Source: Candidatus Acidiferrales bacterium (GTDB taxonomy: Bacteria; Bacteroidota; Ignavibacteria; Kryptoniales; JAKASW01). From it: a stretch of 64,000 nt of DNA. The notes under the pieces were generated by a model that worked only from the letters and a program-made list of their open reading frames with translations, had not been told where the DNA came from and did no database searches. Shown here one piece after another: positions 1 to 58,100 of the stretch. The position numbers were made by a program, and so were the translations under genes. The stretch lies in NCBI GenBank assembly GCA_035515795.1, contig DATJAY010000027.1:1-64000 (forward strand), read 5' to 3'. Position 1 is the first letter of the stretch, and every line of letters starts with the position of its first letter.

Positions 1-2277
1 GCGGTTATCGCAATGACATTTCTAACGGTAGGCTCACTTCTCGCGCAGGTGCATATACGAGAGAGCGCAACGATTACGCCGGGGCAGGCGAAGAAAGTAG
101 AGGTGGTAGGAATCAACCATCACCTCAGATATGAATTCAACTGGAGCGGAGAGGACTCAGCGACTCTTGATTATGTGAACTTGGAATGTGACGAGCCAGC
201 GGTAACTATCCGGTCGGCAAACAGCCCGATCATAGTGGATCTGAACTCTGCCGGCTCCGGGGTGTATGTTTTCGAGCCATTGATGCTCATCCAGAGTTCA
301 CCTAACCCGCCGCAATATCGGGTCGGGTTCAGTCTATACTTCGACGATTCGTTGATTGATGAAGGCTCGGATGGCGCATCTTATGGTGATTGGTATGCTG
401 AATCAGGGACATCAGAGGCGGGCTACGTGTACGGACGCTGTTGTGCTGAACCGTGGCCGGTCTTTTATACAGACTTTTCAAACTTTTCACTTTCGCTGTC
501 TCCATTGTTTAATGGAATGCCGCTTTACCATGGAGGGACAGCCTCAATTGCCGTAAATGGCGGCTACGACTGCAGTGGACCCTGGAGTCCATGGTACTCG
601 AGTGATCCGCTTAAATTGACTATCATTTCAGGGAATCAATACGCATCCTTTCACACATTCGACCCAGTAACTGGAAACGACGTAAAGTTGGACTCTGTTG
701 TAAACACAGTGGGAGACAGCCTCTACTGCTTTACTCTCGTTGCGGACAGCGTTCAACCGGATTCAATAGGCGAATGGGTTACGGTACGAGGGGAGAGTGA
801 CGGCAGGGTTAACACAGATTCGATAGAGGTTATGCCGCCGCCGATTGTGGTCACCTTCAATCCGCCGAAGGTTTCGCCCGGCGACACAGCCGATATTATT
901 CTGAAGCAGCGGAATCCGGATGGCACGATAACAGATTTTCTGCCGGATCAGCATTTTGAAGTTCAAATAGACAGCGGAGGGAGTTATGGGACAATTCTGT
1001 CGCAGGGTGATACCTCACAATATTTTGCTTCCAGGCCTCAGCCGCTCAAGTTTATAGCAGTTGACAGCATACAGGCAGACTCCGAGATGATAAGCGTACA
1101 GGTCGGACCGGAAGCTTCTTTACCTACTGCAACAGTGCCGGGCATAAAGGAGTCGGGTAAAGAAAGCAGTGCTTTATCCAAATTCCCTCAGCTGCAATTG
1201 AGACAAAACAAATCTGCTAATATAAAGAGCAAGAGTTCTCCGGTGAAATCATCGTCGTCGATAGCAAATACTGGTAATCGCAAGAAGGTTTCCTTTTATG
1301 AGGGCGACTATGGCATCGGCTGGGTGGAGATTTCCCAGAAATATATTTTGAAAATTGTGCACCATGATCCATGGTCTATATGGCCTGATCTGCCGCCGGT
1401 TCATGTGCTGATTCCAAACTCGGCCGGGACAGCGGACTCAATTGTGACTGAGGTTTATCCACCAGATTACAATTATAAACGCGGATTCATCATATCAGTT
1501 ACCGATGAAAATGGAAAGCCTCCGAGGAAGCCTATGGCGGTGGAAATAAGGCATGACTACCAGCAAGGTACCGGCGGCCATCTGCATGGGTATCATGACG
1601 GAAACAGCCTGACCCCTCCACAGAAGTTGCAAGGAATATTTTACGGTCAGGGGAAGAGTGACTCTTTGCTTGAATTAACAACTGATGCAAATGGGATAGC
1701 TGTCATCGATTCGCTCGTGGCTTCACAAGTCTCGGGTATGTATCTTATAACTGCATATTTAGCATCCGACCCGTCTATCAAGGATACCGTGAATCTGGCC
1801 GTGCAGGTGCCGAGACTTGTTAAATTCGATGAATTATTTCCAGGAGGTGAGAAACGATTTAGCTTTTCTCAATCCGACACCGGAAGAGCAAATCATCCCG
1901 ACAACGACTATTGTACCACTGCCATGGGCGACAGTTTGTTTCTCGGCATTCTTGATTTTTACAGCTGGTCCTCATCTGATTCGGCTGGCAATGGTGTTAT
2001 TCCGATAATCGTGAGTCTAAACGATATGAGTCTGCACTGGGGTGGCGTGTTCGATATTTATGATACGTGGCAGCCTGATCATAAATGGCACCGTATTGGA
2101 CGAAGTGTTGACATCAATAACCCCGGCAGAATTTTTCAGTATCCCGATCCGAACGATTCTAGGCGTGCTATCTCGACTGAGCTGGGAGGTTGGCTAAAAT
2201 ATTGGATGAATCATCACCATGGATATAGGGTTGATGAAGGCAAATCAGTTCATTATGAATTTTACAATGCATATTAA
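1..2277 (+). CDS. Cassette protein A, copy 1: secreted Ig-like protein with metallopeptidase-like C-terminus (5' end outside window)
   Basis: The reading frame is open from base 1, so the start lies just upstream. The paralogue at 54084-56285 begins with four extra residues (MKSA) before the shared AVIA(M/I)TFLTV signal peptide, which ends in LLAQ. The middle part (about residues 275-370 counted from the ATG at base 13) is an Ig-like segment containing SPGDTADIILKQ and RPQPLKFIAVDS, closely matched in the paralogue. The last 130 residues hold a block with NHPDN, LGILDFY, LSLNDMS-like and WGG motifs, followed by HRIGRSVDI and a terminal VHYEF. His693, Asp700 and His747 have the spacing seen in LAS-type (M15/M74-like) zinc peptidases; this is inference from motif shape only. 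It has no T9SS sorting domain. The stop overlaps the start of gene B by one base. Confidence 0.75.
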   Translation, partial: AVIAMTFLTVGSLLAQVHIRESATITPGQAKKVEVVGINHHLRYEFNWSGEDSATLDYVNLECDEPAVTIRSANSPIIVDLNSAGSGVYVFEPLMLIQSSPNPPQYRVGFSLYFDDSLIDEGSDGASYGDWYAESGTSEAGYVYGRCCAEPWPVFYTDFSNFSLSLSPLFNGMPLYHGGTASIAVNGGYDCSGPWSPWYSSDPLKLTIISGNQYASFHTFDPVTGNDVKLDSVVNTVGDSLYCFTLVADSVQPDSIGEWVTVRGESDGRVNTDSIEVMPPPIVVTFNPPKVSPGDTADIILKQRNPDGTITDFLPDQHFEVQIDSGGSYGTILSQGDTSQYFASRPQPLKFIAVDSIQADSEMISVQVGPEASLPTATVPGIKESGKESSALSKFPQLQLRQNKSANIKSKSSPVKSSSSIANTGNRKKVSFYEGDYGIGWVEISQKYILKIVHHDPWSIWPDLPPVHVLIPNSAGTADSIVTEVYPPDYNYKRGFIISVTDENGKPPRKPMAVEIRHDYQQGTGGHLHGYHDGNSLTPPQKLQGIFYGQGKSDSLLELTTDANGIAVIDSLVASQVSGMYLITAYLASDPSIKDTVNLAVQVPRLVKFDELFPGGEKRFSFSQSDTGRANHPDNDYCTTAMGDSLFLGILDFYSWSSSDSAGNGVIPIIVSLNDMSLHWGGVFDIYDTWQPDHKWHRIGRSVDINNPGRIFQYPDPNDSRRAISTELGGWLKYWMNHHHGYRVDEGKSVHYEFYNAY

Positions 2278-3422
2278 TGAGGATGCTCATGCGACATTTA
2301 AATTTAACTTTGTTTCTTTCGATTCTTCTATTAGGGCTGGAGACGCACGCCCAGAATGATATAAGGACATGGATTACTCAACACGGTTTGAGTACAGACT
2401 ACCCTATCCTTTCTAATGTAGTTTTGGTAAACAGTGTATCTTACGCGCCCGAGAGTGAATTTTACTATTATGACTATGTTCTCACAAATAGCAACGGGAA
2501 TAGGGGAAACATCTGGTATTTTGAAATTGACATCAGGCGCCGTCCTGGTTCAATTATTTATGATACCGTGGGACTGAAGTTTGCGAGCAGGTTTGAACAA
2601 GGTGATTTCCAGCGTTACTATCCAGCCGGGACAAAAGCTATCGAGGCTGTTGGATTTCCTTCTTTACCAAGTTTTAAATGGGTTGGAGTCATAGCACATA
2701 ACTCCGTGGCGAGTTTTGCCACAGGTATAACGCAAATGCCACCCGGTACTATAGTGTCTGGTTTCACTATGATGAGCAAAGCTCTGCCGGGGATAAGGGA
2801 GTTCACAGTTCATCCCGATTTCGATGAGGGTAAGTACACGCCGGATATTGATGGAGATACTACCGCAGCTTTGGATTCGATTTACGTTGCCGTTTACAAC
2901 TACATAGATTCGGCGACCAGAAATATGAATTACCATGGCTGGACGATTGGCCCGACAGCTCCACCATTGGATTTCTCCGCATCATCATGGATCGACACCC
3001 TCATCTCCTACAAGCACCAATCCGTCGCACTTGGCTGGCTCAAGGAGGACAAAACTCACAAACAGGACTGTGACGAAATGATGAACGGCAGGGACTGGTA
3101 CAAGAAAGGGGACTTCGAAAAGCTTGGCAAATGGAATCCAACTAACGACTGGGACTTCGACCGCGATTGGAATAACGGAATAGTCGAAGTATTGGATAGA
3201 AGATTGGACAGAGCAAAGACAGAACTTTCGAAGCGAGATTCTGTGGGTGCAAGGAGAGATTTGCAGATATTTGTGATGGAAGTAGAACTGTTGAATAGTC
3301 TGAGCAAGAAGCTGGAAGATAGGAAACAGGCTCCGATCATGACAAGCGAGGCTTATGCGCTGTTGAAATATAATGCGGAGTATTTGATAGAGAAGTTACC
3401 AGAGGGAAGAGGTAAGAATTAG
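2277..3422 (+). CDS. Cassette protein B, copy 1: secreted protein with FIMAH-like helical C-terminus
   Basis: This 381-residue protein starts at an ATG overlapping the stop of gene A (TAATG), which suggests translational coupling; ATGs at 2283 and 2289 are alternatives. A hydrophobic signal peptide ends near THAQ. Residues 30-220 form a beta-rich domain of unknown family. From the GPTAPPLDF motif onward the protein is charged and helical, with DRRLDRAK and LLKYNAEYLIEKLP resembling the FIMAH domain of secreted bacterial proteins (family recognition is tentative). The paralogue at 56287-57357 differs at only four residues over this tail but is strongly diverged before it. There is no T9SS sorting domain and the function is unknown. 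Confidence 0.72.
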   Translation: MRMLMRHLNLTLFLSILLLGLETHAQNDIRTWITQHGLSTDYPILSNVVLVNSVSYAPESEFYYYDYVLTNSNGNRGNIWYFEIDIRRRPGSIIYDTVGLKFASRFEQGDFQRYYPAGTKAIEAVGFPSLPSFKWVGVIAHNSVASFATGITQMPPGTIVSGFTMMSKALPGIREFTVHPDFDEGKYTPDIDGDTTAALDSIYVAVYNYIDSATRNMNYHGWTIGPTAPPLDFSASSWIDTLISYKHQSVALGWLKEDKTHKQDCDEMMNGRDWYKKGDFEKLGKWNPTNDWDFDRDWNNGIVEVLDRRLDRAKTELSKRDSVGARRDLQIFVMEVELLNSLSKKLEDRKQAPIMTSEAYALLKYNAEYLIEKLPEGRGKN

Positions 3423-4140
3423 GAGCCAAAAGAAAGGGAGGAAGATGTTAGATGAAATGCATTTTAATCTTTCTATCGCTGATCGTAGGAGGTGCCTTTG
3501 CCCAACCGGCAAAGCCTGGCAAAACGGATGCCGCCAGCCAGACATGGCAAATCCCATTCGCTTCATCGGACAACACGATCTCACTTAGCATCCAAAACAA
3601 TTCCAGCACTGAGGCGAAGAACGTGTCCGTCGCGTTCAACAAAATTCCTTCTTGGCTGAAATTCAAAGAGAGCATCGCAACTATAAAGAGCATTTCGGCA
3701 AATGCTTCTGGGGATGCTGTGTTTACATTCTCCGTCGATAAGAAAGCTCCTGTAGGGAAGGACACGACTTTGTCCGCGACAATAACTACAACAGATGGTC
3801 AGTCATGGACGAAGGAGATAAAAATTTCCGTTGGTGCACCGAAAGACTACAAGCTTTACAATAATTTTCCCAATCCATTCAACCCGTCGACAAAGATTGC
3901 ATTTGAGCTTCCGAAAGCATCGCATGTAAAGCTCATCATCTATGATGTGGTTGGAAGGGAAGTCGTAGAGGTGGCAGATGCAGATTATCCTGCCGGTTAT
4001 ACCGAGCTGACATGGAACGGAACAAGCAAGAATGGACCTATGGTGTCATCCGGTGTTTATTTCTACCGCATCAGCGCTGACAAGTGGAGCAAGGTGAAGA
4101 AGATGATGATGGTTAAATAATTCAGAGAGATATTAGCCGA
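2949..4140 (+). repeat. Long dispersed direct repeat, copy 1 (3' part of B plus all of C)
   Basis: About 1.2 kb is nearly identical at DNA level to 56884-58100. Similarity runs from the codons for GPTAPPLDF in gene B through gene C to shortly after its stop. Copy 2 carries a 24-bp insertion after the signal peptide of C. Upstream of this boundary the two cassettes are much less similar. Confidence 0.85.
3452..4120 (+). CDS. Cassette protein C, copy 1: small T9SS type A cargo
   Basis: This 222-residue exported protein has a signal peptide ending in GGAFAQ. A roughly 100-residue Ig-like domain (PSWLKFKES, APVGKDTTL) follows, and the C-terminus is a T9SS type A sorting domain: YNNFPNPFNPSTKIAFELP, then IIYDVVGREV, and a final GVYFYRISADKWSKVKK. 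The sorting domain is normally removed when the protein is attached to or released from the outer surface. A purine-rich ribosome site (GGGAGGAAG near 3437) precedes the ATG. The gene lies 29 bp after gene B, so A, B and C probably form one transcript. It is the only cassette member with a T9SS signal. Apart from the sorting domain no function is recognised. Confidence 0.85.
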   Translation: MKCILIFLSLIVGGAFAQPAKPGKTDAASQTWQIPFASSDNTISLSIQNNSSTEAKNVSVAFNKIPSWLKFKESIATIKSISANASGDAVFTFSVDKKAPVGKDTTLSATITTTDGQSWTKEIKISVGAPKDYKLYNNFPNPFNPSTKIAFELPKASHVKLIIYDVVGREVVEVADADYPAGYTELTWNGTSKNGPMVSSGVYFYRISADKWSKVKKMMMVK

Positions 4141-4363
4141 AAGAGATCCCGCGTTATGGAAAAACTCTTATCCTTTTGGGGGCGATGGTGCCGAACAACA
4201 TTCACATGCTACAACTGAACCGCCCAGCTGAACCACAGAAAGCAAAGTACTCGGATTCATCTTCGCATTGCTGAACTCGTTCGCTATTGCAGCGGCTGTT
4301 TTGGGAATACAGACCGCCACTAGTTCGGCTTCACCGGTCCATTAAGACATAAATCGGCGACTT

Positions 4364-4423
4364 ATCTTTTGAAAAGCGTTCTTTCTTTTCTCTTGATAGA
4401 AAAGAAAGAACCAAAGAAAAGAT
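4364..4423. repeat. Long inverted repeat (two nested stems)
   Basis: A perfect 14-bp inverted repeat, GTTCTTTCTTTTCT at 4378-4391 and its complement at 4398-4411, is separated by a 6-nt loop. Outside it, ATCTTTT at 4364-4370 pairs with AAAAGAT at 4417-4423. It lies about 250 bp after gene C. It could act as a bidirectional terminator or be a mobile palindromic repeat; no U-run clearly favours termination. Confidence 0.65.
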
Positions 4424-4993
4424 CAAGACTTATGAAAAAAATGACGGGAAATTTCTTTGCGCCGCTAAAACAAATAAAATGTCATGAATAGTATCCTCTT
4501 TTTTACCTTTCCAGATCGTAATCCTCTGCTCGAATTGTCTCCTTTGCGAAAATGAAGTCCCGTCTCCCTCCACGAATCTATCAAGACTCCTCTAAAGGCG
4601 ATTTTGGGAATCTCCTCTGTTATATATTAACCGCCGTGTATTAAAATCGCCTCACCTGTCAAGAGGCGGGACGATCCGCCTGTGGCGGACTTTTGGTTCG
4701 CTTAACCGTTGTCGTGCAGGAAGATTGGAATCTCCTCATCTCCAGACATGTATTTATACGATTCCGAATCTTTTGGGCGAGCAAAAGAAAGTAGACAGAC
4801 AACAAGCCTGAACCATATCCGAAGAAAACTATGTTCTTTCTCTTGTCTTGCCATCCCGATTTTCATCGGGACAGGCTCCCGAAAGAACCCAATGAGCGCC
4901 CTTGGCGCCATCCCGCAAGGCGGTGACTTAACGCCATTTTTTCTCAATGCCGGTTACGGAAAGCAGGAATTGAGGACAACCCGGCATCGAGAG

Positions 4994-5033
4994 GAGAAAT
5001 CTTCTCTGGCCATCGTGAATGCCGTTTGGGTGG
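4994..5033 (+). repeat. Degenerate copy of GAGAAATCTT interspersed repeat
   Basis: This 40-bp stretch matches 6955-6994 at about 34 of 40 positions, beginning GAGAAATCTTCT and containing ATCGTGAAT. It appears to be a truncated copy of the palindromic element at 6897-7061. Confidence 0.55.
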
Positions 5034-5224
5034 TACGATGCACGGCATCGGTTGGAAACCGACGCCTTGAGAAGGCGCAAATCCGCCTCTGGCGGATTTC
5101 GAGATTTTTGAAGCCGTCTGTTTTAACAGATCGCGATAAAAACGTTTTGTCACGGCATCGATTAGAAGCCTCTCAGGGGATGCCTTTGTGTCAATGACAG
5201 GAGGAATGGACGGAAAAGTTGTTC

Positions 5225-6322
5225 CTATTTCTTAGACCAGAAGTCGTTCCATCGTTCGGTTTCCTGCTGAAGATCTACGCTTCTCATTATCAGCGGAAAA
5301 TAATCACCGAATGCCATGGTCGATCCTTCATACTTTTCAAGGGAATTGTAAATTGTCGGGCAGAGTATGAAGCCGTATTTGTACTCGGTCTGCAGCGACG
5401 AATCGACTGTGGAACTGTCCAGGTCGTAGAGCTTCTTCTCGAGTCTTATGTCCATGGCTTCCGCAAAACATTCCGCGACGAGTGTATTCCAGTTCCCGTG
5501 CTTCAGGCCGACTTTTGATTTGACTGTATCGTAGAGTCCTTCAATCCGTGCCATGTCCGACGAGTCGCTTCGTGCGAGAGGGAGGGCAATCCGGGTAAGA
5601 AGGTGGTAATAAAAAATCGATTTGTCGGGTTTATCTTCCTGCGGTCCGACGATCACATATATGTCACCGTTCACCCAGGCCGTCAGCGAAGCGTAATAGG
5701 GAAGTAAAGGCATGAATTGGAAATGGATATGCCTGCTGCTGTGCGAAAAGTAATTACTGTCGAGGCGGCAATATGCTTCGACATCCTGCATTGCCTTTTC
5801 CGCGAACCGCTTATACCTGTCGTTCTTCGCCTGTATCAGCGGACGATACTCCGCCCAGAGATCCGCGATGCCGGCTTTCCGGTAAAACTCGGCGAGGAGC
5901 GCGGGGAGACCGGAGTCCGACTCGACGGTTTCACTTATGTCACCGGTCATCTTCGGGTTAAAGCTCCAATGGAAATCCGGCGGCCCGTCCGTCAGAAGCG
6001 CAGCTTCATAAGCTTCTAATATTCTTCCATGGCTTTCGTCAAAGTTCGTTATCTTCCGCTGAAGGGTTGAATCGATTCTGCCGGCAAGGTCGTCGCGGAG
6101 CTCGGTCCTTATCGGATTCATTCCTGCGTGGCGCCATTCACCACCGCCTCCCGCTGCATTCATCATCGCATAAGCGGTAAAGACTCTGGCATCTGCAGAA
6201 AAATCAAAAAGAGAGTCGCTTCCTTGTCCAAAAATTTTTCCCGCCGGCGCTAAGATGATAAGAGGCAGGAAGATCATGGCCGGGAACCATATCGACCTTA
6301 TGCTTTTGTCGTGTAAACTCAT
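5225..6322 (-). CDS. Conserved secreted protein of unknown function (possibly DUF4932-like)
   Basis: This 365-residue protein has an N-terminal hydrophobic segment (residues 10-32, ending FGQG) consistent with export. The start is well supported by AGGAGG about 6 nt upstream on the minus strand. The body is soluble and mixed alpha/beta, with motifs such as YYHLLTRIALPL and GFILCPTIYNSLEKYE. The late part (ECFAEAMDIR, then GF...L..YE) reminds me of DUF4932 proteins, which have a peptidase-like HExxH. No HExxH is present here, so if the relationship is real this member is probably inactive. The gene is 59 bp downstream of the lipoprotein gene on the same strand and may be co-transcribed. The family assignment is weak. 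Confidence 0.6.
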   Translation of the reverse strand: MSLHDKSIRSIWFPAMIFLPLIILAPAGKIFGQGSDSLFDFSADARVFTAYAMMNAAGGGGEWRHAGMNPIRTELRDDLAGRIDSTLQRKITNFDESHGRILEAYEAALLTDGPPDFHWSFNPKMTGDISETVESDSGLPALLAEFYRKAGIADLWAEYRPLIQAKNDRYKRFAEKAMQDVEAYCRLDSNYFSHSSRHIHFQFMPLLPYYASLTAWVNGDIYVIVGPQEDKPDKSIFYYHLLTRIALPLARSDSSDMARIEGLYDTVKSKVGLKHGNWNTLVAECFAEAMDIRLEKKLYDLDSSTVDSSLQTEYKYGFILCPTIYNSLEKYEGSTMAFGDYFPLIMRSVDLQQETERWNDFWSKK

Positions 6323-6381
6323 TGTATCCTCCTGTTTCTGGATAAATTCATATTATGGCTGCCGCGATCGGAAGTGATATT

Positions 6382-6759
6382 TCAATGTCTGACCCTTGGC
6401 GGCGGAGGCGGGGCAGGCGGCTTGTTTGGCGTTGGTTCGCGAACCGGCGGCTTCTGAGGCGGGGGCGGATTAGGATTTGGCCGCGGAGGCGGCACATTGC
6501 TCGGTACCCTCTCTCTCACAACGGGTGGTGGATTGGGTGCCGGGGTATAGTTCGGTGGAGGTGCCGGGGTGTTGCCTGGAACCCAGTTGTGTGGTCGATG
6601 GTGTTCATGATAATACGGCGGCGGCGGGTTATAGTTTTCATCATACGGCGGCGGCGGGGTGGTATTCGTTTCATCACCGGTTTCCACCACCGTGTAACAA
6701 CCCGATAAGCCGAGGGCGAAGAGCAACGAAGCTATCAGGGCAATTGATTTTGTTTTCAT
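6382..6759 (-). CDS. Proline-rich lipoprotein
   Basis: This is a 125-residue protein with a lysine-containing N-terminus, a hydrophobic stretch and the lipobox LSGC (Cys21), so it is predicted to be lipid-anchored after signal peptidase II cleavage. Almost all the rest is low-complexity proline-rich sequence (PPPPYDENYNPPPPYY, then PNPPPP and PPAPPPPP) with Tyr, His, Asn and Arg. It probably forms an extended periplasmic or surface spacer; no catalytic domain is seen. The opposite strand carries an Arg-rich open frame that is only a composition shadow. Confidence 0.7.
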   Translation of the reverse strand: MKTKSIALIASLLFALGLSGCYTVVETGDETNTTPPPPYDENYNPPPPYYHEHHRPHNWVPGNTPAPPPNYTPAPNPPPVVRERVPSNVPPPRPNPNPPPPQKPPVREPTPNKPPAPPPPPRVRH

Positions 6760-10377: not shown

Positions 10378-10386
10378 TTAATCGAT

Positions 10387-10411: not shown

Positions 10412-10463
10412 GGTCTCTCCGCGGCAGTTCAACTGTCGTAGAGCTTTTTGCAGGAAGAATTTT

Positions 10464-36550: not shown

Positions 36551-36632
36551 ATCTGTGGAAGGAAACTGAGAGCGTCCGGATGAAAACGTAGTGAACATCA
36601 ATTTTTCAAATCGGCGTTCACGGAGTTCATAG

Positions 36633-37007
36633 ATGGGAACGCAACAGATCCTGCTCCTGGTACTCGGGACATTCATCGTCGGTGTCGCTGTAGTTCTCGC
36701 CATCATCTACTTCAGATCGAATCAGCAACAAACCGAGATCGACGAAGTCATCAACGAGCTTAATCACATTTCGTCGACCGCTCAGGGATGGTACCGCAAG
36801 CCGACACAACTCGGAGGAGGGGACGGATCCTTTACGGGTTTTACATTGATGACAGTCGCGCAGCCCGATACGACCGGGCTTGCCATATACCACGTCGTCT
36901 CAGCAAAGGGAGATTCACTCTCTTTGGAGGCGGTTGGTTTTTCACATTTCACGATCAACGTCGTAGTGTCTCCGAGTTCTATTGGAGCGTACACCGTGAT
37001 CAAGTGA
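36633..37007 (+). CDS. MGTQQ-type pilin-like membrane protein, copy 1
   Basis: This 124-residue protein has an extreme N-terminal hydrophobic helix, MGTQQILLLVLGTFIVGVAV, then a coiled region QQTEIDEVINELNHIS. A conserved block WYRKP, LGGGDGSFTGF and a beta-rich end follow. The overall shape (single N-terminal helix continuing into a small globular domain) recalls type IV pilins or pseudopilins, but a normal prepilin leader with Glu at position +5 is missing. It is paralogous to the gene at 37572-38084, including the leader DNA. Function unknown. Confidence 0.65.
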   Translation: MGTQQILLLVLGTFIVGVAVVLAIIYFRSNQQQTEIDEVINELNHISSTAQGWYRKPTQLGGGDGSFTGFTLMTVAQPDTTGLAIYHVVSAKGDSLSLEAVGFSHFTINVVVSPSSIGAYTVIK

Positions 37008-37571
37008 AGAACAAAACCAGTGATCAATTTAAAATCAATCAGGTGATCCTGTTCAGCCCACAAGTGAGGTTCAGGCGGGAATTAACCGGGGGGAGGGGGA
37101 TCGGAAACTGAGGTTCGAATAGGGCGCAATTTTTTGAAGGATTTGAGCACAAGTATAAGGTCTCCTGAACTCGTTGCCGCCAATTTGAACAAGCAAATGA
37201 TTTCATCCTTCAGAAACGCTCAAAAAATGAGGCTTTTCATACTCCCGATTGCCTCATTAGCCAATTCATACGATTTTCTCCGATGGCTATTGCTTTTCAA
37301 TACAAATCGTTATTAACTTACGGTTGAAGTCCTAGGGCTTGGTTTTAGGATTGGTACTGAAGGCGTCCCCAGCGATTGCAGGAATGACAGTATTTTCAGA
37401 GTATTGTTAGTTTTAGTTGTTAACGAGATGCACAATCACAAGTCAAAGTTGACACAGTAACCGTTTAAGATTCAAGCCTCGACAAGAAATTGGTGGAAGA
37501 AAACTGAGAACGTCCAAACGAAACCAACGAGAGAATTAATTCTCTCAGCTTGGCGTCCAAGGAGATCTTAG
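37008..37571. other. Intergenic region between the two MGTQQ genes
   Basis: About 564 bp without a convincing gene. An inverted repeat AATGAGGC (37226-37233) / GCCTCATT (37251-37258) could mark the end of the first transcript. The last 80 bp resemble the region before the first gene (shared AACTGAGA-CGTCC and GGCGT-CA motifs) and contain a perfect 18-bp palindrome at 37529-37546. Confidence 0.55.
37529..37546. promoter_or_regulatory. Perfect 18-bp palindrome upstream of the second MGTQQ gene
   Basis: GAGAGAATTAATTCTCTC reads the same on both strands and lies 25 bp before the start codon at 37572. It could be an operator or an mRNA hairpin near the ribosome site. It is absent at the equivalent place before copy 1. 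Confidence 0.5.
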
Positions 37572-38084
37572 ATGGGAACGCAACAGCTTCTTCTGCTGGT
37601 CCTGGTTGCAGTTGTTGTAATTATCGCGGTGGTAATCGCTATCAACTACTTCATATCGAACAAACAGGACACCGAGATCGATGAAGTCATCAACGAGCTG
37701 GGCAACATTACGTCTTCCGCTCAGATCTGGTACCGCAAGCCGATGGAACTAGGGGGGGGCAATGGTTCATTCACGGGCTTTAGTCTGCATGCAATTTCTC
37801 AACCGGATTCCACTGAACTCGCTTCCTTTACAGTTGTATATGCAGACAAAGATTCTTTATTCATCGAAGCGGCCAGCCTCGACGAATCGAATTCCTCTGC
37901 CTTCACGGTAGATGTAGGCGTTAATCCTCAATCCGAAAGTCAATATCATGTAAACAAGGGAAAGGCAAAGGGCATACCCACTGCGGTTAGCACTGGTAAC
38001 GGCAACGGAAATGGTAACGCAGGTGGTAACGGAAATGGCAACGGAGGTGGTAATGGAAATGGCAATGGAAAGGGCGGAGGATGA
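37572..38084 (+). CDS. MGTQQ-type pilin-like membrane protein, copy 2, with Gly/Asn-rich tail
   Basis: This 170-residue paralogue of the gene at 36633 shares MGTQQ, the hydrophobic helix (LLLLVLVAVVVIIAVVIAI), DTEIDEVINELGNI, WYRKPMELGGG and GSFTGFS. It adds a 40-residue low-complexity tail built of GNGN and GGNGNGN units ending GKGGG. The tail coding DNA is itself a short tandem repeat. The N-terminal helix suggests membrane anchoring or filament assembly. The gene is 24 bp before tryptophanase on the same strand. Function unknown. Confidence 0.65.
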   Translation: MGTQQLLLLVLVAVVVIIAVVIAINYFISNKQDTEIDEVINELGNITSSAQIWYRKPMELGGGNGSFTGFSLHAISQPDSTELASFTVVYADKDSLFIEAASLDESNSSAFTVDVGVNPQSESQYHVNKGKAKGIPTAVSTGNGNGNGNAGGNGNGNGGGNGNGNGKGGG

Positions 38085-50293: not shown

Positions 50294-50603
50294 TTTATTC
50301 TACCTTTGCTCTTGGAGTTGAAAAAAATCGGACGAAACGATTTTGAAAGAATGTAGCAGTAGCTGCGCGACTCCTCATGAATTCAATTTACGCAATTCGA
50401 GTAAGAAATTAATGAGTTTGCAAATCAAACAAAATGATTCAAATGCATCCGTTCACAAAAGATTGACCTCAATATTATGGCCAGTACGAATCTTATCTTA
50501 TTACTTCTCGACAAATTCCCGTTGATCCGCCTTATCTCCGAATTCTTAATGAAACAACTTTTTGTTCATTGTGCGGGCACGGTGGTGAGTTTATATTGAT
50601 GCC
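50294..50603. other. Divergent promoter region between GH31 and the TPR gene
   Basis: About 310 bp between two divergently transcribed genes, AT-rich near the TPR gene. It must hold promoters in both directions, but I found no clear operator, hairpin or sigma-factor site. Confidence 0.5.
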
Positions 50604-52448
50604 ATGAGAAGAACACTGACGGCAATTCTCCTTCTAACACTTGCATCTTTTACTTACTCGCAGAGTCTGCCCGTGCCTTCGGCAAGTACTGAAGAGCTTA
50701 ACAAGCTCAGAATTGCCCAGGCTCTCGAGCAGGCAGGTGAATACGAAAAAGCCCTCGACTTTTATCTGCAGCTGCATCAATCGTCGCCGGACAACTTTGT
50801 CTACTTCGACGGACTCCGGCGAGTTTATATGAACTTGAAAAGGTACGAGAGCGCCAAGGAATTGCTGAATGATAGATTGCAGAGTGATCCGTCCAATGTT
50901 GTCATGTTGTGCCAGCTTGGCGATGCGTACTTCAAGAATGGCCAGCAGGACTCGGCATTGGTGATATGGAACAAAGCGCTGACAATTGATCCGAAAAATC
51001 CCAATGTTTATAAAGCAGTCGCAAACACGATGGCGGAGAATAGACTTTTTGACAAGGCGATAGATGTTTACCGAAACGGCGAGGTTAATTCCAATCAGAC
51101 GTTTACGAATGAAATAGCGCGGCTTTATTTTCTTAACGCGAATTACGCCGGCTCATTACGCGAGCTCCTGAAGCAGCTAAAAACACAGCAAACCACCTAT
51201 ATCTTGTCAAACATAGAGGTGCAAATAGCATCGTACGGTTCGAGCAAGGAGGCTCTCAATCAGTTCACAGGCGAGATGGAAAAACAGGTTGTAGAAAACC
51301 CCGACAATAGAGACTACAGACGGCTGCTCAGCTTTATATATATGGAGAAAAAAAATTACGCCGCAGCTTATACGGCATACAAATGGCTCGACAACCATTC
51401 CAGTGCGCCCGGATCGGAGCTCCTCCAGTTTGCCGTCAGGGCATATAACGACGAGGCGTATGAAGTGGCATCGAACGCATATAAGGAAGTTTCTACTCTA
51501 TCCAAAAACAATTCCATTGTCGTCCAGGGTTTGTACGGATATGCGAACTCGCTTCAGGAGCTCGGGGAGAATAAATATACCGAAGGCGACGGCCCATGTT
51601 CCACAACGGACACTTTAGCCGAACTTGATCAAGCCCTGTCGACATACGAAACAATCATAGAGCAATATCCGAATACGCAATTCTTGAGCTCCGCGGTTCT
51701 GAATTCTGTCGGCTTGAAGATGAAATATTTTCATGATTTCGCCGGCGCGGGAAAATTACTGTCCGACCACAGAGATCGCGCTGGCACCGATGATTGGACC
51801 ATGGCACGTATCCGCTTGTGCATGATGGAAGGAAAATTTCAAGATGCCTTCAACACATCGTTAGGAGTCATCCAGTCGAGCCCAGCGGCGGACGAAAGCG
51901 TGCGTGATAAAATAAAATTTCAAGCTGCACTTGCCCTTTATTACCTGGGCAACTACGACAGCTCCGCTTTTTATTTAAGCGAGATAAGTTCCAATCCAAT
52001 GTCCGACGCCGCTAATGATGCTATTCAGCTTTTGAATACGATTACAAACAACCGCGGCAACCCGGCGGCGCTGCGGGAATTCGCTTCTGCCTCGGCAATG
52101 GAAGAATCGGACAAAATTCCTGAAGCCGCTTCTGCCCTTGAGAAAATTCTGAACGAATATCCGAATGTTCCATTGGCGGACAACGCGCGATTTGATTTAG
52201 CGTCCGATTATTGCAGGATGGGAAACGTAGACGCAGCTTTGAAAAACTATTCATTGCTTGCGGAGGACAGCACCGGGATATTTGCGGACAGAGCGGACTT
52301 AAGGATCTGCAGGATTTATCAGACGACGCTGCGTCAAAATGAAAAGGCAATTTCAGAATACGAAGACTTCTTGGTCCGATTCCCGAATTCAATTTATCAG
52401 AATCGAGTCCGGGAAATCCTGAGAAATCTGCTAGGGGAAGATTCATAG
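50604..52448 (+). CDS. Secreted tetratricopeptide-repeat protein
   Basis: This 614-residue protein has a signal peptide ending FTYSQS. It is composed mostly of TPR-like helical hairpins: QALEQAGEYEKALDFYLQL, CQLGDAYFKNGQQDSALVIW, FDKAIDVYRNG and, near the end, DYCRMGNVDAALKNYSLLAE. TPR arrays mediate protein contacts. The gene belongs to the same strand as the next conserved secreted protein, 82 bp away. Similar TPR plus conserved protein pairs occur in Bacteroidota, but no partner function is known. Confidence 0.85.
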   Translation: MRRTLTAILLLTLASFTYSQSLPVPSASTEELNKLRIAQALEQAGEYEKALDFYLQLHQSSPDNFVYFDGLRRVYMNLKRYESAKELLNDRLQSDPSNVVMLCQLGDAYFKNGQQDSALVIWNKALTIDPKNPNVYKAVANTMAENRLFDKAIDVYRNGEVNSNQTFTNEIARLYFLNANYAGSLRELLKQLKTQQTTYILSNIEVQIASYGSSKEALNQFTGEMEKQVVENPDNRDYRRLLSFIYMEKKNYAAAYTAYKWLDNHSSAPGSELLQFAVRAYNDEAYEVASNAYKEVSTLSKNNSIVVQGLYGYANSLQELGENKYTEGDGPCSTTDTLAELDQALSTYETIIEQYPNTQFLSSAVLNSVGLKMKYFHDFAGAGKLLSDHRDRAGTDDWTMARIRLCMMEGKFQDAFNTSLGVIQSSPAADESVRDKIKFQAALALYYLGNYDSSAFYLSEISSNPMSDAANDAIQLLNTITNNRGNPAALREFASASAMEESDKIPEAASALEKILNEYPNVPLADNARFDLASDYCRMGNVDAALKNYSLLAEDSTGIFADRADLRICRIYQTTLRQNEKAISEYEDFLVRFPNSIYQNRVREILRNLLGEDS

Positions 52449-52530
52449 CTGCAGTGTATACGAATCAACATTTACGGATTATGTGTCATCGTTCAAGAGA
52501 TGGCGAATAATTGCAATCGCAGGTGATAAA

Positions 52531-53796
52531 ATGAAAAGATTTGCTTTTTTGTTCTTGATCTTTTCGGCAACGGCCGTTTTCGGCCAATCGAAACTTCTTA
52601 TTTACATGGATCTCAAGCAAACCGACGATTTGAAGGCTTACGGCGTGGCATACTATGCACTCCAGCATGGCATCGAAGTCGACTGGTTGCTGAACTACCG
52701 CGGCGGTTCGTTTATGATGGACGACAACGATGTCATTGCAAATGAATGCAGAATACGCGGCGTCGCGTTCGACGAGCTGACTGCCGTGGAGTCATCTCAA
52801 ATTTACGCCATCGTCCAGGATGTGAACAATAATATGGACGTTGTGCGTCTCGAGAAAGCCCCAAAAATCGCCGTTTATATTCCGCCGAACTACAAGCCAT
52901 GGGACGATGCAGTGACTCTTGCGCTGAATTACGCTCAAATCCCATTCACGCAGGTTTGGGATGAGGAGGTGCTCGACGGCAAACTTTCACAATACGACTG
53001 GCTCCACCTTCACCACGAAGATTTCACGGGGCAGTACGGGAAATTCTATGCTTCATACAGCAATGCGCCATGGTATGTCGAGGAGCAAGCAACTTATGAA
53101 AAAGAAGCTCGTAGGCTCGGATTCAAAAAGGTCTCCGATGAAAAGAAAGCGGTTGCGCTCGCAATAAGAAACTATGTGGGGCAGGGCGGCTTTCTGTTCG
53201 CAATGTGTTCGGCGACAGAGACGCTCGACATCGCGCTCGCCGCCCAGCACACGGATATCTGCGACGTTATGTTCGACGGCGATCCGCCCGATCCCGATGC
53301 GCAGGACAAACTCGATTATTTGCAGTGTCTGGCATTCCAGAATTTCAAGCTGGTGATGAATCCGTATGAGTACGCCTTCTCGGATATCAACGATCCTCCG
53401 AACAACATGGTACAGTTCCGCGACCCGACCACGGACTACTTCACGCTGTTCCAGTTCTCCGCAAAATATGATCCGGTACCGACAATGTTGACTCAGGATC
53501 ACGTTAACGTGATAAAGAATTTCATGGGGCAGACTTCGTCATTCAAGAAAAGCTTGATCAAACCTAATGTCGTGATCATGGGGGAAAAGGAAGGCACCGG
53601 GGAAGTGAAGTACATCCATGGCGATTACGGAAAGGGGACCTGGACATTTCTCGGCGGTCACGATCCTGAAGCGTACACTCATCTGGTCGGCGATCCACCT
53701 ACCGATTTGTCTCTGCACAAAGACTCGCCGGGATACAGATTGATTTTGAATAATATCTTGTTCCCGGCAGCAGAGAGGAAACCGCAGAAGACATAA
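52531..53796 (+). CDS. Conserved secreted protein often mislabelled asparagine synthetase B
   Basis: This 421-residue protein is counted from the ATG at 52531 (AGGTG nearby) because it then begins with a signal peptide, MKRFAFLFLIFSATAVFGQ. It contains no glutamine amidotransferase or AsnB catalytic motifs. The sequence has QTDDLKAYGVAYYALQHGIEVDWLLNYRGG, abbreviated here as LKAYGVAYYAL and WLLNYRGGSF, then LHHEDFTGQYGKFYASY and GGFLFAMCSATET. These match a Bacteroidota/Ignavibacteria family that databases call asparagine synthetase B without biochemical basis. The function is unknown and periplasmic or outer location is expected. Confidence 0.78.
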   Translation: MKRFAFLFLIFSATAVFGQSKLLIYMDLKQTDDLKAYGVAYYALQHGIEVDWLLNYRGGSFMMDDNDVIANECRIRGVAFDELTAVESSQIYAIVQDVNNNMDVVRLEKAPKIAVYIPPNYKPWDDAVTLALNYAQIPFTQVWDEEVLDGKLSQYDWLHLHHEDFTGQYGKFYASYSNAPWYVEEQATYEKEARRLGFKKVSDEKKAVALAIRNYVGQGGFLFAMCSATETLDIALAAQHTDICDVMFDGDPPDPDAQDKLDYLQCLAFQNFKLVMNPYEYAFSDINDPPNNMVQFRDPTTDYFTLFQFSAKYDPVPTMLTQDHVNVIKNFMGQTSSFKKSLIKPNVVIMGEKEGTGEVKYIHGDYGKGTWTFLGGHDPEAYTHLVGDPPTDLSLHKDSPGYRLILNNILFPAAERKPQKT

Positions 53797-53891
53797 GAAG
53801 CCATTGGCTCATCCTGCTTTCGACAAGTCCAAGCAGACTTTCAGCCAGCAGGTGGCTCCTTATGATTTTTGCCCGAGCTACTTGAGCAGGT

Positions 53892-53908
53892 TTATTTAGA
53901 CTAAATAA
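53892..53908. promoter_or_regulatory. Inverted repeat upstream of cassette copy 2
   Basis: TTATTTAG and its exact complement CTAAATAA flank a single A. It lies 96 bp after the preceding gene and 176 bp before gene A copy 2. It could be an operator, or with the following TTTTCC a weak terminator. Confidence 0.4.
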
Positions 53909-54083
53909 GTTTTCCGGTTTTCTTCTTGATATTTACACCATGGCTTGTTAAAATTTAGGCATAGATATTGCCAGAGGGCAAATGAAGTCAGGGAGCCCGA
54001 AGCACGAAGATTCACCTTACGATTGTTTCAACTTGAAGCTGAGTAGTTTTGAAACATTACTTGGCATCAAAGGAGTCTTTGAG

Positions 54084-56285
54084 ATGAAGAGTGCAGCGGT
54101 TATTGCGATTACATTTCTAACGGTAAGTTCACTTCTTGCGCAGGTGCATATAAGAGAGAGCGCAACGATTATACCGGGGCAGGCGAAGAGGGTGCAGATA
54201 TCGGAAAACAAACACAAGATATGCTTTACATTTGTCTGGAACACAGATTGTGAAGGCTGCACGCAGACTGAGATTGGCCGTATACATGTCTACGGTCCAT
54301 GCGGTCTTGATACCACATGTGAAGACACAGATCGCCGTCCGATTATGGTCATAAATCCTGCAAGGGCAGGCGACTACTGGTTTAGCCTCTCGCTATTCAA
54401 GACTACAACAGATTCTTCAATTGGCGAGTGCTCCATCTATCAAGATGACTCACTTATCTATGAAGAGACCAGGTGGTCATGGGCGACAAGGAATGTTGTT
54501 CCCAATGCGTGGAATTATCTCCACCAGGGTTATAATCCGGAAGGCGACACCCTCAAATATTACTCAACTCCTTACTATTCAACATTTCAGCTTCAATTGG
54601 TGCCCACCGGCTTTTCTTACGGTCAGGAGTCAGGCTTCTTCTACGGGGATGAATCCATAGTAAGATTGCAGGGTTCGGATAGCTGCACGAATACTGCGTG
54701 GTCTTTCGATGATCCTGATCCTATAACATTTACTATATTATCCGGCCATCGATACGCTTCGTTCCATACTTTTGGACCCGATGGTGAAGACGTAAAGCTT
54801 GACTCGACCTTTACCACGACCGCGATGGAGATTTGGATGGATCAGTTTTTTCTTGCTGCAGACAGTGTTCGACCGGATTCAGCTGGCGAGTGGGTGGTAG
54901 TCGAAGCAGAGAGCAAAGGGGTGAAAAGCATAGATTCGATACGAATCTTTCCATCACCGGTAGTCGTCGGTCTTGTTCCGTCCGAGATTTCACCGGGTGA
55001 TACTGCGATGATAGTCGTAAAGAATCAGAACCCCGACGGTACGATAACGGATTTCACGCCGGATCAATTCTTTGAAGTCGGGATAGACAGCGGGAACGCA
55101 TATGGAACGATTCTGTCGCAGGGTGATACGGCTCAATACTTCGCGCGAAGACCTCAGCCGTTGCAGTTCATAGCAGTCGACAGCATAAGTGCAGACTCAG
55201 AGATAGTCGGGATTAGAGTGGGCTGGGAGCAGGAGGTACCTTGCTCAACGGTGCCGGGTGTAAAAGAGAATTCCGGGCAAAACAGGAAAGCGGGAGGCAC
55301 AACGGTTGATGCAAATCTAAAGAACACGGCGATCAACCCTCCGGCAAGGAAGGTGAATATATTACCAGTTCACCGCAAGTCGGTCTCCGATGCGCCTAAC
55401 TTTTCATCGGGTTACTATGGTATCGGCTGGGTTGAGATAGAAAAGACTAAGATCACAATCAATATCCCAACACCAAAGCAGGAATGGCCAAATTTGCCAC
55501 CACATTCTGGAGGAAATCCCAATGCAAGGGACGAGAAGAAATTCACGGTCACAGTGACACGTGGAGGCAAACCCTTGCCCAATTATGGTGTAACTACAAC
55601 AGCATCCATGATACTGCCATCCGGGGGACACGCTCATCTAAATCAGCCACCGCAGGCTGAAATGGGAGAACTCGAGGACTATGTGCACCATGTTGATGGG
55701 AACGGAACGATAACGACCTTGACAGACGGTGATGGAAATATCTTTATAGATTTCACAGCGCCGGAATTTAGCGGAAATGTATTGATGACTGCTTCGTCAA
55801 CTACCGAAAATGTAAGTGCACACGATACCATTTCAGTGATGGTCCCGGGTTTTGTTAATTTCAGAGATTTGATATTCCTGCCAAATAGAGCCCGACCTTA
55901 CGCATTCCAACAAACGACTCAAACCGCCATTGACAATCATCCTGACAACAACTGGTGTACACCGGAAGCGGGCGACCAATTCTTCCTTGGAATACTTGAT
56001 TTCTATTTCTTGTCCGGTTCAGCAGATGGCGGCGGAACGTACTTGAGCATTAACGACATGAGCCTGCCGTGGGGCGGGTTGTTCGATGCACTATATTCGA
56101 ATTGGCAACCTCCTCATAGTGCTCACAGGATAGGCCTGAGTATAGACATAAACCCGAATGATGCAAATGATATCCCGTTGACCTTAGATCAGATCCGCCA
56201 ACTTAATTTTTGGATGGCAAAGCACCAATGTTATCGGAACAGCGAAAGACAAATACACTATGGATATTTAAATGGGAGAAACTAA
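54084..56285 (+). CDS. Cassette protein A, copy 2: secreted Ig-like protein with metallopeptidase-like C-terminus
   Basis: This 733-residue protein is taken from the ATG at 54084, which has AAAGGAG about 9 nt upstream; an open frame continues 34 codons further. The signal peptide ends SLLAQ. It is paralogous to gene A copy 1 but diverged in the N-terminal half. The Ig-like segment (SPGDTAMIVVKNQNPDGTI) and the C-terminal block are conserved. His681, Asp688 (HRIGLSIDI) and His725 (IHYGY) keep the LAS-like metal-ligand pattern, as do DNHPDNNWC, LGILDFY and WQPPH. No T9SS tag. Peptidase activity is inferred, not shown. Confidence 0.75.
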   Translation: MKSAAVIAITFLTVSSLLAQVHIRESATIIPGQAKRVQISENKHKICFTFVWNTDCEGCTQTEIGRIHVYGPCGLDTTCEDTDRRPIMVINPARAGDYWFSLSLFKTTTDSSIGECSIYQDDSLIYEETRWSWATRNVVPNAWNYLHQGYNPEGDTLKYYSTPYYSTFQLQLVPTGFSYGQESGFFYGDESIVRLQGSDSCTNTAWSFDDPDPITFTILSGHRYASFHTFGPDGEDVKLDSTFTTTAMEIWMDQFFLAADSVRPDSAGEWVVVEAESKGVKSIDSIRIFPSPVVVGLVPSEISPGDTAMIVVKNQNPDGTITDFTPDQFFEVGIDSGNAYGTILSQGDTAQYFARRPQPLQFIAVDSISADSEIVGIRVGWEQEVPCSTVPGVKENSGQNRKAGGTTVDANLKNTAINPPARKVNILPVHRKSVSDAPNFSSGYYGIGWVEIEKTKITINIPTPKQEWPNLPPHSGGNPNARDEKKFTVTVTRGGKPLPNYGVTTTASMILPSGGHAHLNQPPQAEMGELEDYVHHVDGNGTITTLTDGDGNIFIDFTAPEFSGNVLMTASSTTENVSAHDTISVMVPGFVNFRDLIFLPNRARPYAFQQTTQTAIDNHPDNNWCTPEAGDQFFLGILDFYFLSGSADGGGTYLSINDMSLPWGGLFDALYSNWQPPHSAHRIGLSIDINPNDANDIPLTLDQIRQLNFWMAKHQCYRNSERQIHYGYLNGRN

Positions 56286-56286
56286 G

Positions 56287-57357
56287 ATGAATAAAAAGAA
56301 TTTAGCTATTTTGGTGTTGCTTGCGTGCGGATCGCTATGCTCACAAGGGCAAGAATTACCCCTTCTAAAAGAAGTCCAAGTAAAGTGTGCCGTTTCATTT
56401 CAGCAACAGAATGGAATGTACTACTTTACCTACGATGTACGGAACGATCTCAGCAGCGTTGGAAACATTATCATGTTTAACATTGACATCTCTACGAGCC
56501 AAAACTCGATTCAGTATGATACCAGCGGTTTGCGCTACAGGGACGATGGGTTCACTGAGAAGATCTTTCAAAATGACTACCCAGTGATTAAGGGTAAGAT
56601 CGTTCCTGTTGGATTTCCTTCGATGCCCCTTCATTGGTTCGCGGGAGTTGGAACAGACCTCGCGGCTGGCTTTGGCGGAGATTCTCGCAATTGGATCAAG
56701 CCAGGAAGTGCACTGGGGGGATTTGTCATCATGAGTAAAGGGTTGCCAGGAATACGATCATTCGTGGCAATCCCGGATTATGACCCCACAAAATATTTCC
56801 CCGATCCTGATGAGTACCCGGAATCAGACACCGTGAACATTGATTCCGTAAGGGAGTCACTAAATTATTATGGCAAAACACTCGGCCCCACCGCTCCGCC
56901 ATTAGACTTCTCTGCGTCATCATGGATAGACACCCTCATTTCCTACAAGCACCAATCCGTTACGCTCGGCTGGCTCAAGGAGGACAAAACTCACAAACAG
57001 GATTGCGACGAAATAATGAACGGCAGGGACTGGTATAAGAAAGGTGACTTCGAAAAGTTTGGCAAATGGAATCCGACTAATGACTGGGACTTCGACCGCG
57101 ATTGGAATAATGGAATAGTCGAAGTATTGGATAGAAGATTGGACAGGGCAAAGACAGAACTTTCCAAGCGGGATTCTGTGGGTGCAAGGAGAGATTTGCA
57201 GATATTTGTGATGGAAGTAGAACTGTTGAATAATCTGAGCAAGAAGCTGGAGGATAGAAAACAGGCTCCGATCATGACAAGCGAAGCTTATGCGCTGCTG
57301 AAATATAATGCGGAGTATTTGATAGAGAAGTTACCAGAGGGAAGAGGTAAGAATTAG
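56287..57357 (+). CDS. Cassette protein B, copy 2: secreted protein with FIMAH-like C-terminus
   Basis: About 356 residues from the ATG at 56287, one base after the gene A stop, with GGGAGA upstream; the frame is open five codons earlier. A signal peptide, NLAILVLLACGSLCSQG, is followed by a diverged beta-domain, then the tail from GPTAPPLDF that is almost identical to copy 1 (four differences in about 156 residues). The near-identity extends to synonymous sites, unlike the front half, pointing to gene conversion or recent duplication of the tail. Function unknown. Confidence 0.75.
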   Translation: MNKKNLAILVLLACGSLCSQGQELPLLKEVQVKCAVSFQQQNGMYYFTYDVRNDLSSVGNIIMFNIDISTSQNSIQYDTSGLRYRDDGFTEKIFQNDYPVIKGKIVPVGFPSMPLHWFAGVGTDLAAGFGGDSRNWIKPGSALGGFVIMSKGLPGIRSFVAIPDYDPTKYFPDPDEYPESDTVNIDSVRESLNYYGKTLGPTAPPLDFSASSWIDTLISYKHQSVTLGWLKEDKTHKQDCDEIMNGRDWYKKGDFEKFGKWNPTNDWDFDRDWNNGIVEVLDRRLDRAKTELSKRDSVGARRDLQIFVMEVELLNNLSKKLEDRKQAPIMTSEAYALLKYNAEYLIEKLPEGRGKN

Positions 57358-58100
57358 GAGCCAAAAGAAAGGGAGGAAGAAGTTAGATGAAATGCATTTT
57401 AATCTTTCTATCGCTGATCGTAGGAGGTGCCTTTGCCCAACCGGCAAAGGTTGGCAAAACGGATGCCGTGGGACAGATCCCTCAACAAAGTTCGGGACAG
57501 GTCTGGCAAGTCCCATTCGCCTCATCGGACAACACAATCTCTCTGAGTGTTCAAAACAATTCCGGCACTGAGACGAAGAATGTGTCCGTCGCGTTCAACA
57601 AAATTCCATCATGGCTGAAGTTTAAAGAGAACGCTGCAACCATAAAGAGCATTTCGGCAAATGCTTCTGGGGATGCCGGGTTTACATTCTCTGTTGATAA
57701 GAAAGCTCCTGTTGGAAAGGACACGACCTTGACGGCAACGATAAGTACAACAAATGGTCAGTCATGGACTAAGGAAATAAAGATCTCTGTCGGAGCGCCG
57801 AAAGATTACAAGCTTTACAATAACTTTTCCAATCCATTCAACCCGTCGACAAAAATTGCATTTGAGCTTCCGAAAGCATCGCATGTAGAACTCATCATCT
57901 ATGACGTCGTCGGGAGAGAAGTCACGCAAGCTGCAGACGCAGATTATCCTGCCGGTTATACCGAGCTGACATGGAACGGAACAAACAAAAATGGAACACT
58001 TGTTTCATCCGGAGTTTACTTTTATCGGATAAGCGCTGACAAGTGGAGCAAGGTGAAGAAGATGATGATGGTTAAATAATTCAAAGAGATGTTCAGTAAT
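56884..58100 (+). repeat. Long dispersed direct repeat, copy 2 (3' part of B plus all of C)
   Basis: Partner of 2949-4140. The match begins within the GPTAPPLDF codons of gene B and continues through gene C to about 20 bp past its stop, with one 24-bp insertion. Confidence 0.85.
57387..58079 (+). CDS. Cassette protein C, copy 2: small T9SS type A cargo
   Basis: This 230-residue protein is nearly identical to copy 1 with an eight-residue insertion after the signal peptide (GQIPQQSSGQ region). The T9SS domain is intact except that the first motif reads NFSNPFNPSTK instead of NFPNPFNPSTK, a change next to the conserved core. The C-terminus GVYFYRISADKWSKVKK is unchanged. It is 29 bp after gene B, preceded by GGGAGGAAG. 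The last gene of the second cassette. Confidence 0.85.
   Translation: MKCILIFLSLIVGGAFAQPAKVGKTDAVGQIPQQSSGQVWQVPFASSDNTISLSVQNNSGTETKNVSVAFNKIPSWLKFKENAATIKSISANASGDAGFTFSVDKKAPVGKDTTLTATISTTNGQSWTKEIKISVGAPKDYKLYNNFSNPFNPSTKIAFELPKASHVELIIYDVVGREVTQAADADYPAGYTELTWNGTNKNGTLVSSGVYFYRISADKWSKVKKMMMVK

Follow-up and report, generated by a model that had tools for sequence, protein, structure and literature searches.

A multi-copy A-B-C gene family in a Kryptoniales genome as a probable envelope-targeting polymorphic toxin-immunity system

Two trios of adjacent genes, here called A, B and C, lie about 50 kb apart in the window, that is, in the whole 64,000-nucleotide stretch of DNA analyzed here (Candidatus Acidiferrales bacterium, assembly GCA_035515795.1, contig DATJAY010000027.1, positions 1 to 64,000), and they raise the question of what such a repeated cassette does and in what respect its copies differ. 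An earlier note on this DNA described a secreted cassette of no named system, duplicated in two divergent copies, and listed surface display, competition and substrate handling as its possible roles. In this study, A and B were both found to be chimeric, and the C-terminal tip of A is exchanged together with the N-terminal half of B, while C is dispensable; the trio as such is not the unit that varies. Judged from sequence, A-B-C is probably a polymorphic toxin-immunity system directed against the cell envelope, and competition is the best-fitting of the roles listed.

All six open reading frames (ORFs) were present at the predicted positions, strand and spacing, and the one-to-one correspondence of the two trios in order and spacing held. 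Their parts are as follows.

1..1308, forward strand: A1 constant body, with a partial signal, an Ig-like region and the junction linker; truncated at its 5' end by the contig edge
1309..2277, forward strand: A1 variable tip, an Ig/Big-type domain and an M74-like zinc-peptidase domain
2277..2927, forward strand: B1 signal-like N-terminus and variable N-half (Ig-like), the proposed immunity part
2928..3422, forward strand: B1 constant C-half (FIMAH-like); start of the right homology arm
3452..4120, forward strand: C1, a NEW3/Ig-like domain and a type IX secretion system (T9SS) type A sorting domain (TIGR04183, 36.5 bits, cut-off 23)
54084..55415, forward strand: A2 constant body, with signal, Ig-like region and linker up to YGIGWVEI
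55416..56285, forward strand: A2 variable tip, a Big-type domain and an M74-like domain (an AlphaFold2 model being among the basis)
56287..56926, forward strand: B2 signal-like N-terminus and variable N-half (Ig-like sandwich in the model)
56927..57357, forward strand: B2 constant FIMAH-like helical C-half
57387..58079, forward strand: C2, a NEW3/Ig-like domain and a T9SS type A sorting domain (TIGR04183, 32.6 bits, cut-off 23)

The copies are divergent as claimed, but unevenly so. The second half of B and the whole of C are 88.3% identical at the DNA level over 1,231 bp (2928-4134 versus 56863-58093, E 0). Additionally, the 5' end of A (1-94 versus 54096-54189) matches at 90%, and a part of the A body (735-1088 versus 54851-55204) matches at 70%, with E-values of ~1e-30 and ~1e-34, respectively, which rule out chance. 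In other words, A resembles its counterpart at the 5' end, B in its 3' half and C throughout, and the stretch in between is unlike. Export signals had been assigned to all six products; for A1, the signal is visible only in part. The window begins at the first base of contig C27 of this 39-contig genome, and A1 is consequently missing its start codon along with the first part of its signal. Similarly, contig C20 starts inside an A gene and contig C16 starts just upstream of a C gene. Since these three contigs start in or near A or C genes, assembly breaks within the repeat arms may explain their starts.

To describe the family in its own genome, A2, B2 and C2 were used as queries and the matching loci were inspected individually, which yielded seven A-B loci along with five C genes of full length. 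The A-B loci lie on contig C27 (the two window loci), contig C35 (~44-48 kb and ~378 kb), contig C5 (~4-8 kb) and contig C20 (at its start and at ~122 kb). C follows B at four of them, namely, both window loci, C35-44k and C5, and the fifth full-length C gene stands at the start of contig C16. C is absent after the other three: the loci C20-122k and C35-378k carry a propeller-type B without the constant half, and the locus at the start of C20 has no C although its B has the constant half. Two trios are thus real, whereas a simple duplication is not; the window loci belong to a multi-copy mosaic. Moreover, 135 places in the genome match C2 at E ≤ 0.001, most of them only in the C-terminal half with the T9SS tail, and SprA is present.

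The chimeric build of A and B is evident at both the protein and the DNA level. A consists of a constant N-terminal Ig-like body and a conserved junction, followed by one of six main tip classes, namely, M74-like zinc peptidase (class I), SLT/lysozyme-like (class II), class III (perhaps SLT-like), two HExxH groups and C39-like peptidase. B consists of a variable N-half and a constant FIMAH-like C-half. The junction reads YGIG in six of the seven A copies of the genome, A35b being the deviating one. The copies A27b and A35a are 97% identical over 136 aa up to the junction, beyond which no tip match is found at E 1, and A20a and A27a are 95% identical over 41 aa up to the junction and 25% identical thereafter. 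At the DNA level, window copy 2 and the C35-44k locus share a left arm (82-96%) and a right arm that reaches to the end of C (79-97%); between the arms lies a non-homologous block of ~1.5 kb in the window copy and ~2.4 kb in the other, extending from the junction of A to inside B, before the constant half. The same arrangement was observed in a genome from another family of the class (G036, loci L081 and L094), with a left arm of 71-98%, a block of ~2 kb and a right arm of 81-98%. In genome G123, two neighboring units share the right arm, including C, at 86-100%, their A and B N-parts are unrelated, and no left arm is evident beyond a short stretch. Collectively, these comparisons reveal two cases in which the A tip and the B N-half are swapped jointly, as a single block flanked by conserved arms, and G123 is compatible with the same pattern. 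Over most 150-bp windows, the C genes of the two G123 units (L186, 5210-5836 and 10911-11537) are 98-100% identical, and the tips beside them are unrelated, which suggests recent gene conversion or duplication.

Profiles were built from the copies of this genome and iterated over 92 loci, to which three groups and six stretches were added later. From the B-profile matches, 60 stretches plus a few more were fetched, a subset of all matches. Most of the loci were fetched through a B match, so that C beside B is enriched by design; of 29 named loci, 21 overlapped the fetched stretches (at least 20% of probes) and were left out of the tallies. In 81 of 82 pairs from 51 genomes, the class of the tip corresponds to that of B, the partner standing directly downstream; the same holds for 39 of 39 pairs from the 13 genomes with at least two classes, both counts ignoring shared descent. 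The pairs are distributed as follows.

M74-like tip with Ig-type B: 29 pairs
Class III tip with FG-GAP-type B: 24 pairs
SLT-like tip with propeller-type B: 11 pairs
Two HExxH tip groups with two HEAT-type B groups: 8 and 5 pairs
C39-like tip with its own B type: 4 pairs
M74-like tip with an unclassified B (locus L134): one pair, the sole mismatch

At L134, the B frame starts inside A, and a frameshift is a possible cause of the mismatch. In an earlier four-class table, which also counted the singleton A5/B5 of this genome (an HExxH tip with a B of its own type, outside the 82 pairs), 65 of 66 pairs agreed, and 20,000 shuffles, again ignoring shared descent, gave a mean of 23.7 and a maximum of 38.

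Standalone tip cassettes without an N-terminus also exist. In the one-contig genome G345, an array of ~26 kb (2514944-2541259) holds three full-length A genes and several B genes, and no C was found in it by profile. Three copies of one leader, with 0-2 mismatches over 96 nt, retain the junction and run into a degenerate remnant, an HExxH tip and an SLT-like tip fragment; one of these leaders is 96% identical over 103 bp to the junction sequence of a full-length A, after which its protein runs on into another tip. Additionally, genome G010 carries a tip remnant in two ORFs, with neither N-terminus nor junction, between two B genes of the same type. Other arrangements were SLT tip-B-A(class III)-B-B-C in G012 and, in G021 (L093), a body fused to the constant half of B in which no tip was recognized. 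In G017 (L090, 4637-7607), the gene order is C-A-B instead of A-B-C.

The resemblances of the tips differ in strength from class to class. For class I, 11 columns are invariant in 15 sequences, including an H..HR.G...D motif and a last histidine (H, H, D, H), residues that presumably act as metal ligands as in the M74 family. PF03411 (M74) matches seven of the 15 tips at E up to 0.5, with a best value of 1.8e-6. The best match to a PDB profile is the murein endopeptidase MepA (1tzp), at E 0.086 and aligned only in the motif region; the other seven PDB profile matches were DMC1 chains, which are unrelated and were set aside. The MepA model NF006947 gave 8.8e-5 for the protein of locus L096, far under the cut-off. 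With the M74 family (1tzp/1u10), the tips share the pattern D-M/I-S-L..GG....HxxHRxG...D and the last histidine, and the second tip domain resembles a hedgehog/LAS-type fold; unlike MepA, the domain here ends a multi-Ig body. In the AlphaFold2 model of the A2 tip (predicted local distance difference test, pLDDT, 81), an Ig-type domain is followed by this second domain, which VIA-align aligned with Sonic hedgehog (Z 9.2, 115 residues) and VanY-like LdcB (Z 7.9 and 7.7), scores that are middling and rank below many Ig-type rows (Z up to 11.4). MepA itself was absent among the VIA-align rows, and in Foldseek, beta-sandwich matches appeared among the best 50 rows, the peptidase part not being among these.

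For class II, PF01464 (SLT) reached 21.4 bits against a cut-off of 21.3 in one of eight tips, that of A35b taken alone, and 16.6 bits, under the cut-off, with full-length A35b; the PDB matches were goose-type lysozymes only (E 0.03-0.6), and an E-S pair is invariant. For class III, the Pfam SLT match is weak (one of 22 members, E 0.0024), as is the pattern of an invariant E and SY...Q, and the PDB profile search gave nothing credible; 'SLT-like' is here perhaps mainly a motif seen by eye. The HExxH motif occurs in all 14 tips of the zincin groups, nine of which are seeds, and in two of 28 class I, none of nine class II and none of 23 class III tips; the HExxH-group tips scanned received no Pfam name. 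PF13529 (C39_2) matched two of the four C39-like tips at 4e-9 and 1.5e-8 and the others more weakly. No nuclease or deaminase was recognized among the tips scanned, which fits exported antidotes, and the A bodies gave nothing useful in Pfam or NCBIfam.

B is the partner whose two halves behave differently. The B2 model (pLDDT 82) shows an Ig-like sandwich and a helical bundle; Foldseek returned only weak matches for it (best E 3.6e-4, low template-modeling scores), so the fold of the B N-half is uninformative on function. The C-half resembles the FIMAH domain; its score exceeds the cut-off in loci L140 and L183 and falls short of it in both window copies (19.4 and 19.7 bits versus 24.8). A hydrophobic N-terminal stretch, a crude measure used without a signal-peptide predictor, is present in 71 of 81 complete B proteins versus 77 of 195 other ORFs. 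In some lineages, B carries repeat tails of the YYxGAWR...DKQQDIS type (e.g., L186, 5972-8155), and a repeat resembling these stands before the isolated C gene at the beginning of contig C16 (L051, 1-420). In a B-type protein of genome G222 (L153, 210-3608), five stretches match the InlB B-repeat (PF18998), and there is a weak match to a beta-helix.

The earlier note had taken A-B-C for a conserved unit, and the neighborhood of C bears this out. B is the nearest upstream gene (within 450 bp) for 48 of 54 C genes, a count biased by the selection of loci through B, and in the own genome, four of the five full-length C genes follow a B, the fifth lying at a contig start. Leaving aside B genes at contig edges, 87 remain; C occurs among the genes after them (gaps of at most 450 bp) for 53 of the 77 that bear the FIMAH half and for none of the ten that lack it, some of which are fragments (Fisher p 3e-5, uncorrected for relatedness). 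Since C follows only FIMAH-bearing B genes, we propose, on this indirect basis, that the FIMAH half of B and C interact. Both window copies of C exceed the curated cut-off for the T9SS type A sorting domain.

The family is patchily distributed. The B profile matched 73 of 391 genomes of the class, 49 of 190 genera and eight of the 13 genomes of the genus, and the A2 search matched 11 of 61 genomes (the own genome and relatives), including six of the 13 of the genus; among the named relatives is Candidatus Kryptoniota isolate Ww171. Furthermore, four genomes labeled Deltaproteobacteria (two), Nitrospirae and Nitrospinota carry A-B (three) or B (one). In these four, whose bin completeness and assignment are unchecked, neither a T9SS tail (0 matches each) nor SprA was found, and no C lies in the stretch examined around A-B or B. 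C is thus dispensable, being missing at three of the seven own loci, after all B genes without the FIMAH half and in the four genomes without T9SS hits.

Is such a system known? The features of polymorphic toxin systems that sequence can test, namely, a body, junction and variable tip, standalone cassettes and a class-specific partner, were all found here. In the systems defined by Zhang et al. (2012, PMC3482391), a cassette is described as bringing in a new immunity gene; the shared traits are the constant 5' body with a variable C-terminal domain, the standalone tip cassettes, the cognate immunity gene directly downstream and the recombination of tip and immunity gene together. Unlike in those systems, the exchange block here stops partway through the immunity gene, the second half of which is constant, and only hydrolases were recognized among the A tips. 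The T9SS is not among the delivery types named in the abstract of that paper, and neither PorSS, Por secretion nor TANFOR appears as a term in the text examined. The statement that no named system has this composition may hold, whereas the architecture is that of polymorphic toxin systems.

A close relative is the group of TANFOR toxins of Bacteroidetes (Jana et al. 2020, PMC7073777), for which T9SS export is proposed and tips including nucleases are described; section 9 of that paper leaves open whether the T9SS has a role in killing between bacteria. As described there, TANFOR toxins resemble the present system in the Sec signal, the C-terminal toxin domains including peptidoglycan hydrolases, the downstream immunity genes, the nearby genes with T9SS tails and the proposed T9SS export. 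They differ in that the T9SS neighbor of the example has SprB repeats, whereas a small dedicated C protein is found here, and in that B is bipartite here. The TANFOR domain (TIGR02542) had no match in A1, A2 and six other A proteins, some of them N-terminally incomplete (NCBIfam), and a TIGR02542 search of four genomes was empty, though run without a positive control. Collectively, the system differs from the TANFOR class in the absence of the domain from the scanned proteins, the bipartite antidote and the small T9SS-tagged partner. Among the literature matches listed, from a search limited to open-licence papers, no description of A-B-C appeared, and the TANFOR paper was the only close relative.

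In contact-dependent inhibition (CdiA/CdiI), orphan CdiA-CT/cdiI modules start at a conserved junction and lack the N-terminus. Orphan modules of this kind occur here as well; unlike CdiA, the seven A proteins searched, some of them incomplete, have no two-partner secretion domain by Pfam. PADLOC anti-phage models gave 0 matches for seven proteins. VipB (PF05943) was found in G345 and was not found in G010 or in the own genome, for which delivery by a type VI secretion system was rejected on this ground.

Toxicity, immunity, the docking of B to C, the export route and the target are the parts of the system that we infer, and they can be assembled as follows. A would be a Sec-exported toxin whose constant Ig-like body presents an exchangeable C-terminal hydrolase, a putative M74-like murein endopeptidase at the window loci and a candidate SLT/lysozyme-like, HExxH or C39-like enzyme elsewhere. 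B would be the cognate exported immunity protein; its variable N-half would block the matching tip, and its constant FIMAH-like C-half would dock to a common partner. That partner may be C, a small Ig-like protein whose T9SS type A tail could bring or hold the complex at the cell surface in T9SS-bearing species. Recombination between the conserved arms in A and B would replace tip and antidote in one step, with the N-terminus-less tip-B cassettes of the arrays as possible donors. That the block ends inside the antidote gene would best be explained by a common function, for example docking or export, that the constant B half serves as C does. A bolder version, which we offer tentatively and regard as rather unlikely, is that the toxin, having no sorting tail, is exported through the T9SS while bound to its antidote, whose FIMAH-like half docks on the T9SS-tailed carrier C, so that one block rewrites specificity and leaves the export interface untouched.

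Several observations weigh against this reading. For an immunity protein, B is large and has several domains, with long repeat tails in some copies. The route out of the cell is in question, since A1, A2, B1 and B2 showed no T9SS tail match in the library scans. Of the 77 FIMAH-bearing B genes away from contig edges, 24, those of the G345 array included, are not followed by C. The enzymatic identity of the tips is also a weak point: NF006947 gave only E 0.21 for A2, far under the cut-off, the hedgehog and LdcB Z-scores lie near the level that VIA-align calls common, and class III and the HExxH groups have no firm enzyme assignment. Some copies look defective, A35a (C35-44k) having no N-terminus and seeming broken or truncated, and A5 (C5) and A20b (C20-122k) having in-frame stops in the N-terminal part. 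Finally, shared descent may underlie part of the pairing, and the seeds of the zincin and C39 profiles came from adjacent genes, with only three of the 17 pairs in these groups (L094, L149 and L191) being seed-free.

An unlikely alternative is that the A proteins are hydrolases for remodeling the own envelope or scavenging nutrients, with B as a dedicated inhibitor or folding helper and the diversity reflecting substrates instead of conflict. It would account for the tips recognized being hydrolases, with no nuclease or deaminase in those scanned, and for partners that mostly look exported; a helper, too, would be enzyme-specific. The patchy occurrence within the genus (B in 8/13 and A in 6/13 genomes) is, however, a mark of conflict systems, as are the orphan tip cassettes in an array, the block exchange and the broken copies. 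A scaffold for surface display through the T9SS, in which C and the constant halves form the complex and the variable parts are binding modules under diversifying selection, seems more improbable still. The Ig-like bodies, the T9SS tail on C and the long repeat-bearing B tails would suit it, but binding does not require active-site-type residues, and these are invariant over the 15 class I sequences, as the HExxH motif is in the 14 of 14 zincin-group tips (nine being seeds); A-B (three) or B (one) also occurs in the four genomes that gave no T9SS tail hit. A simple segmental duplication of one operon followed by divergence, with no exchange of parts, would leave order and spacing conserved, as observed, but can hardly be credited given the step pattern of identity, in which the ends are alike and the middle is unrelated, in the own genome and in G036, and given G123, where one end is alike and the rest unrelated.

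With the toxin-immunity reading preferred, the family would offer a compact, multi-copy and clearly modular candidate for T9SS-linked killing in Kryptoniota, Ignavibacteria and their relatives, the T9SS tag being carried by a gene of its own. The six tip-partner classes would represent ready-made enzyme-inhibitor pairs, several perhaps acting against peptidoglycan, and the bipartite antidote would be a clean test case for separating specificity from export.

Two further features of the window lie outside the cassettes. An ORF of 437 aa directly upstream of A2 (52483-53796) has no Pfam or NCBIfam match. A pair of direct repeats of ~290 bp with 73% identity occupies 36555-36843 and 37493-37782.

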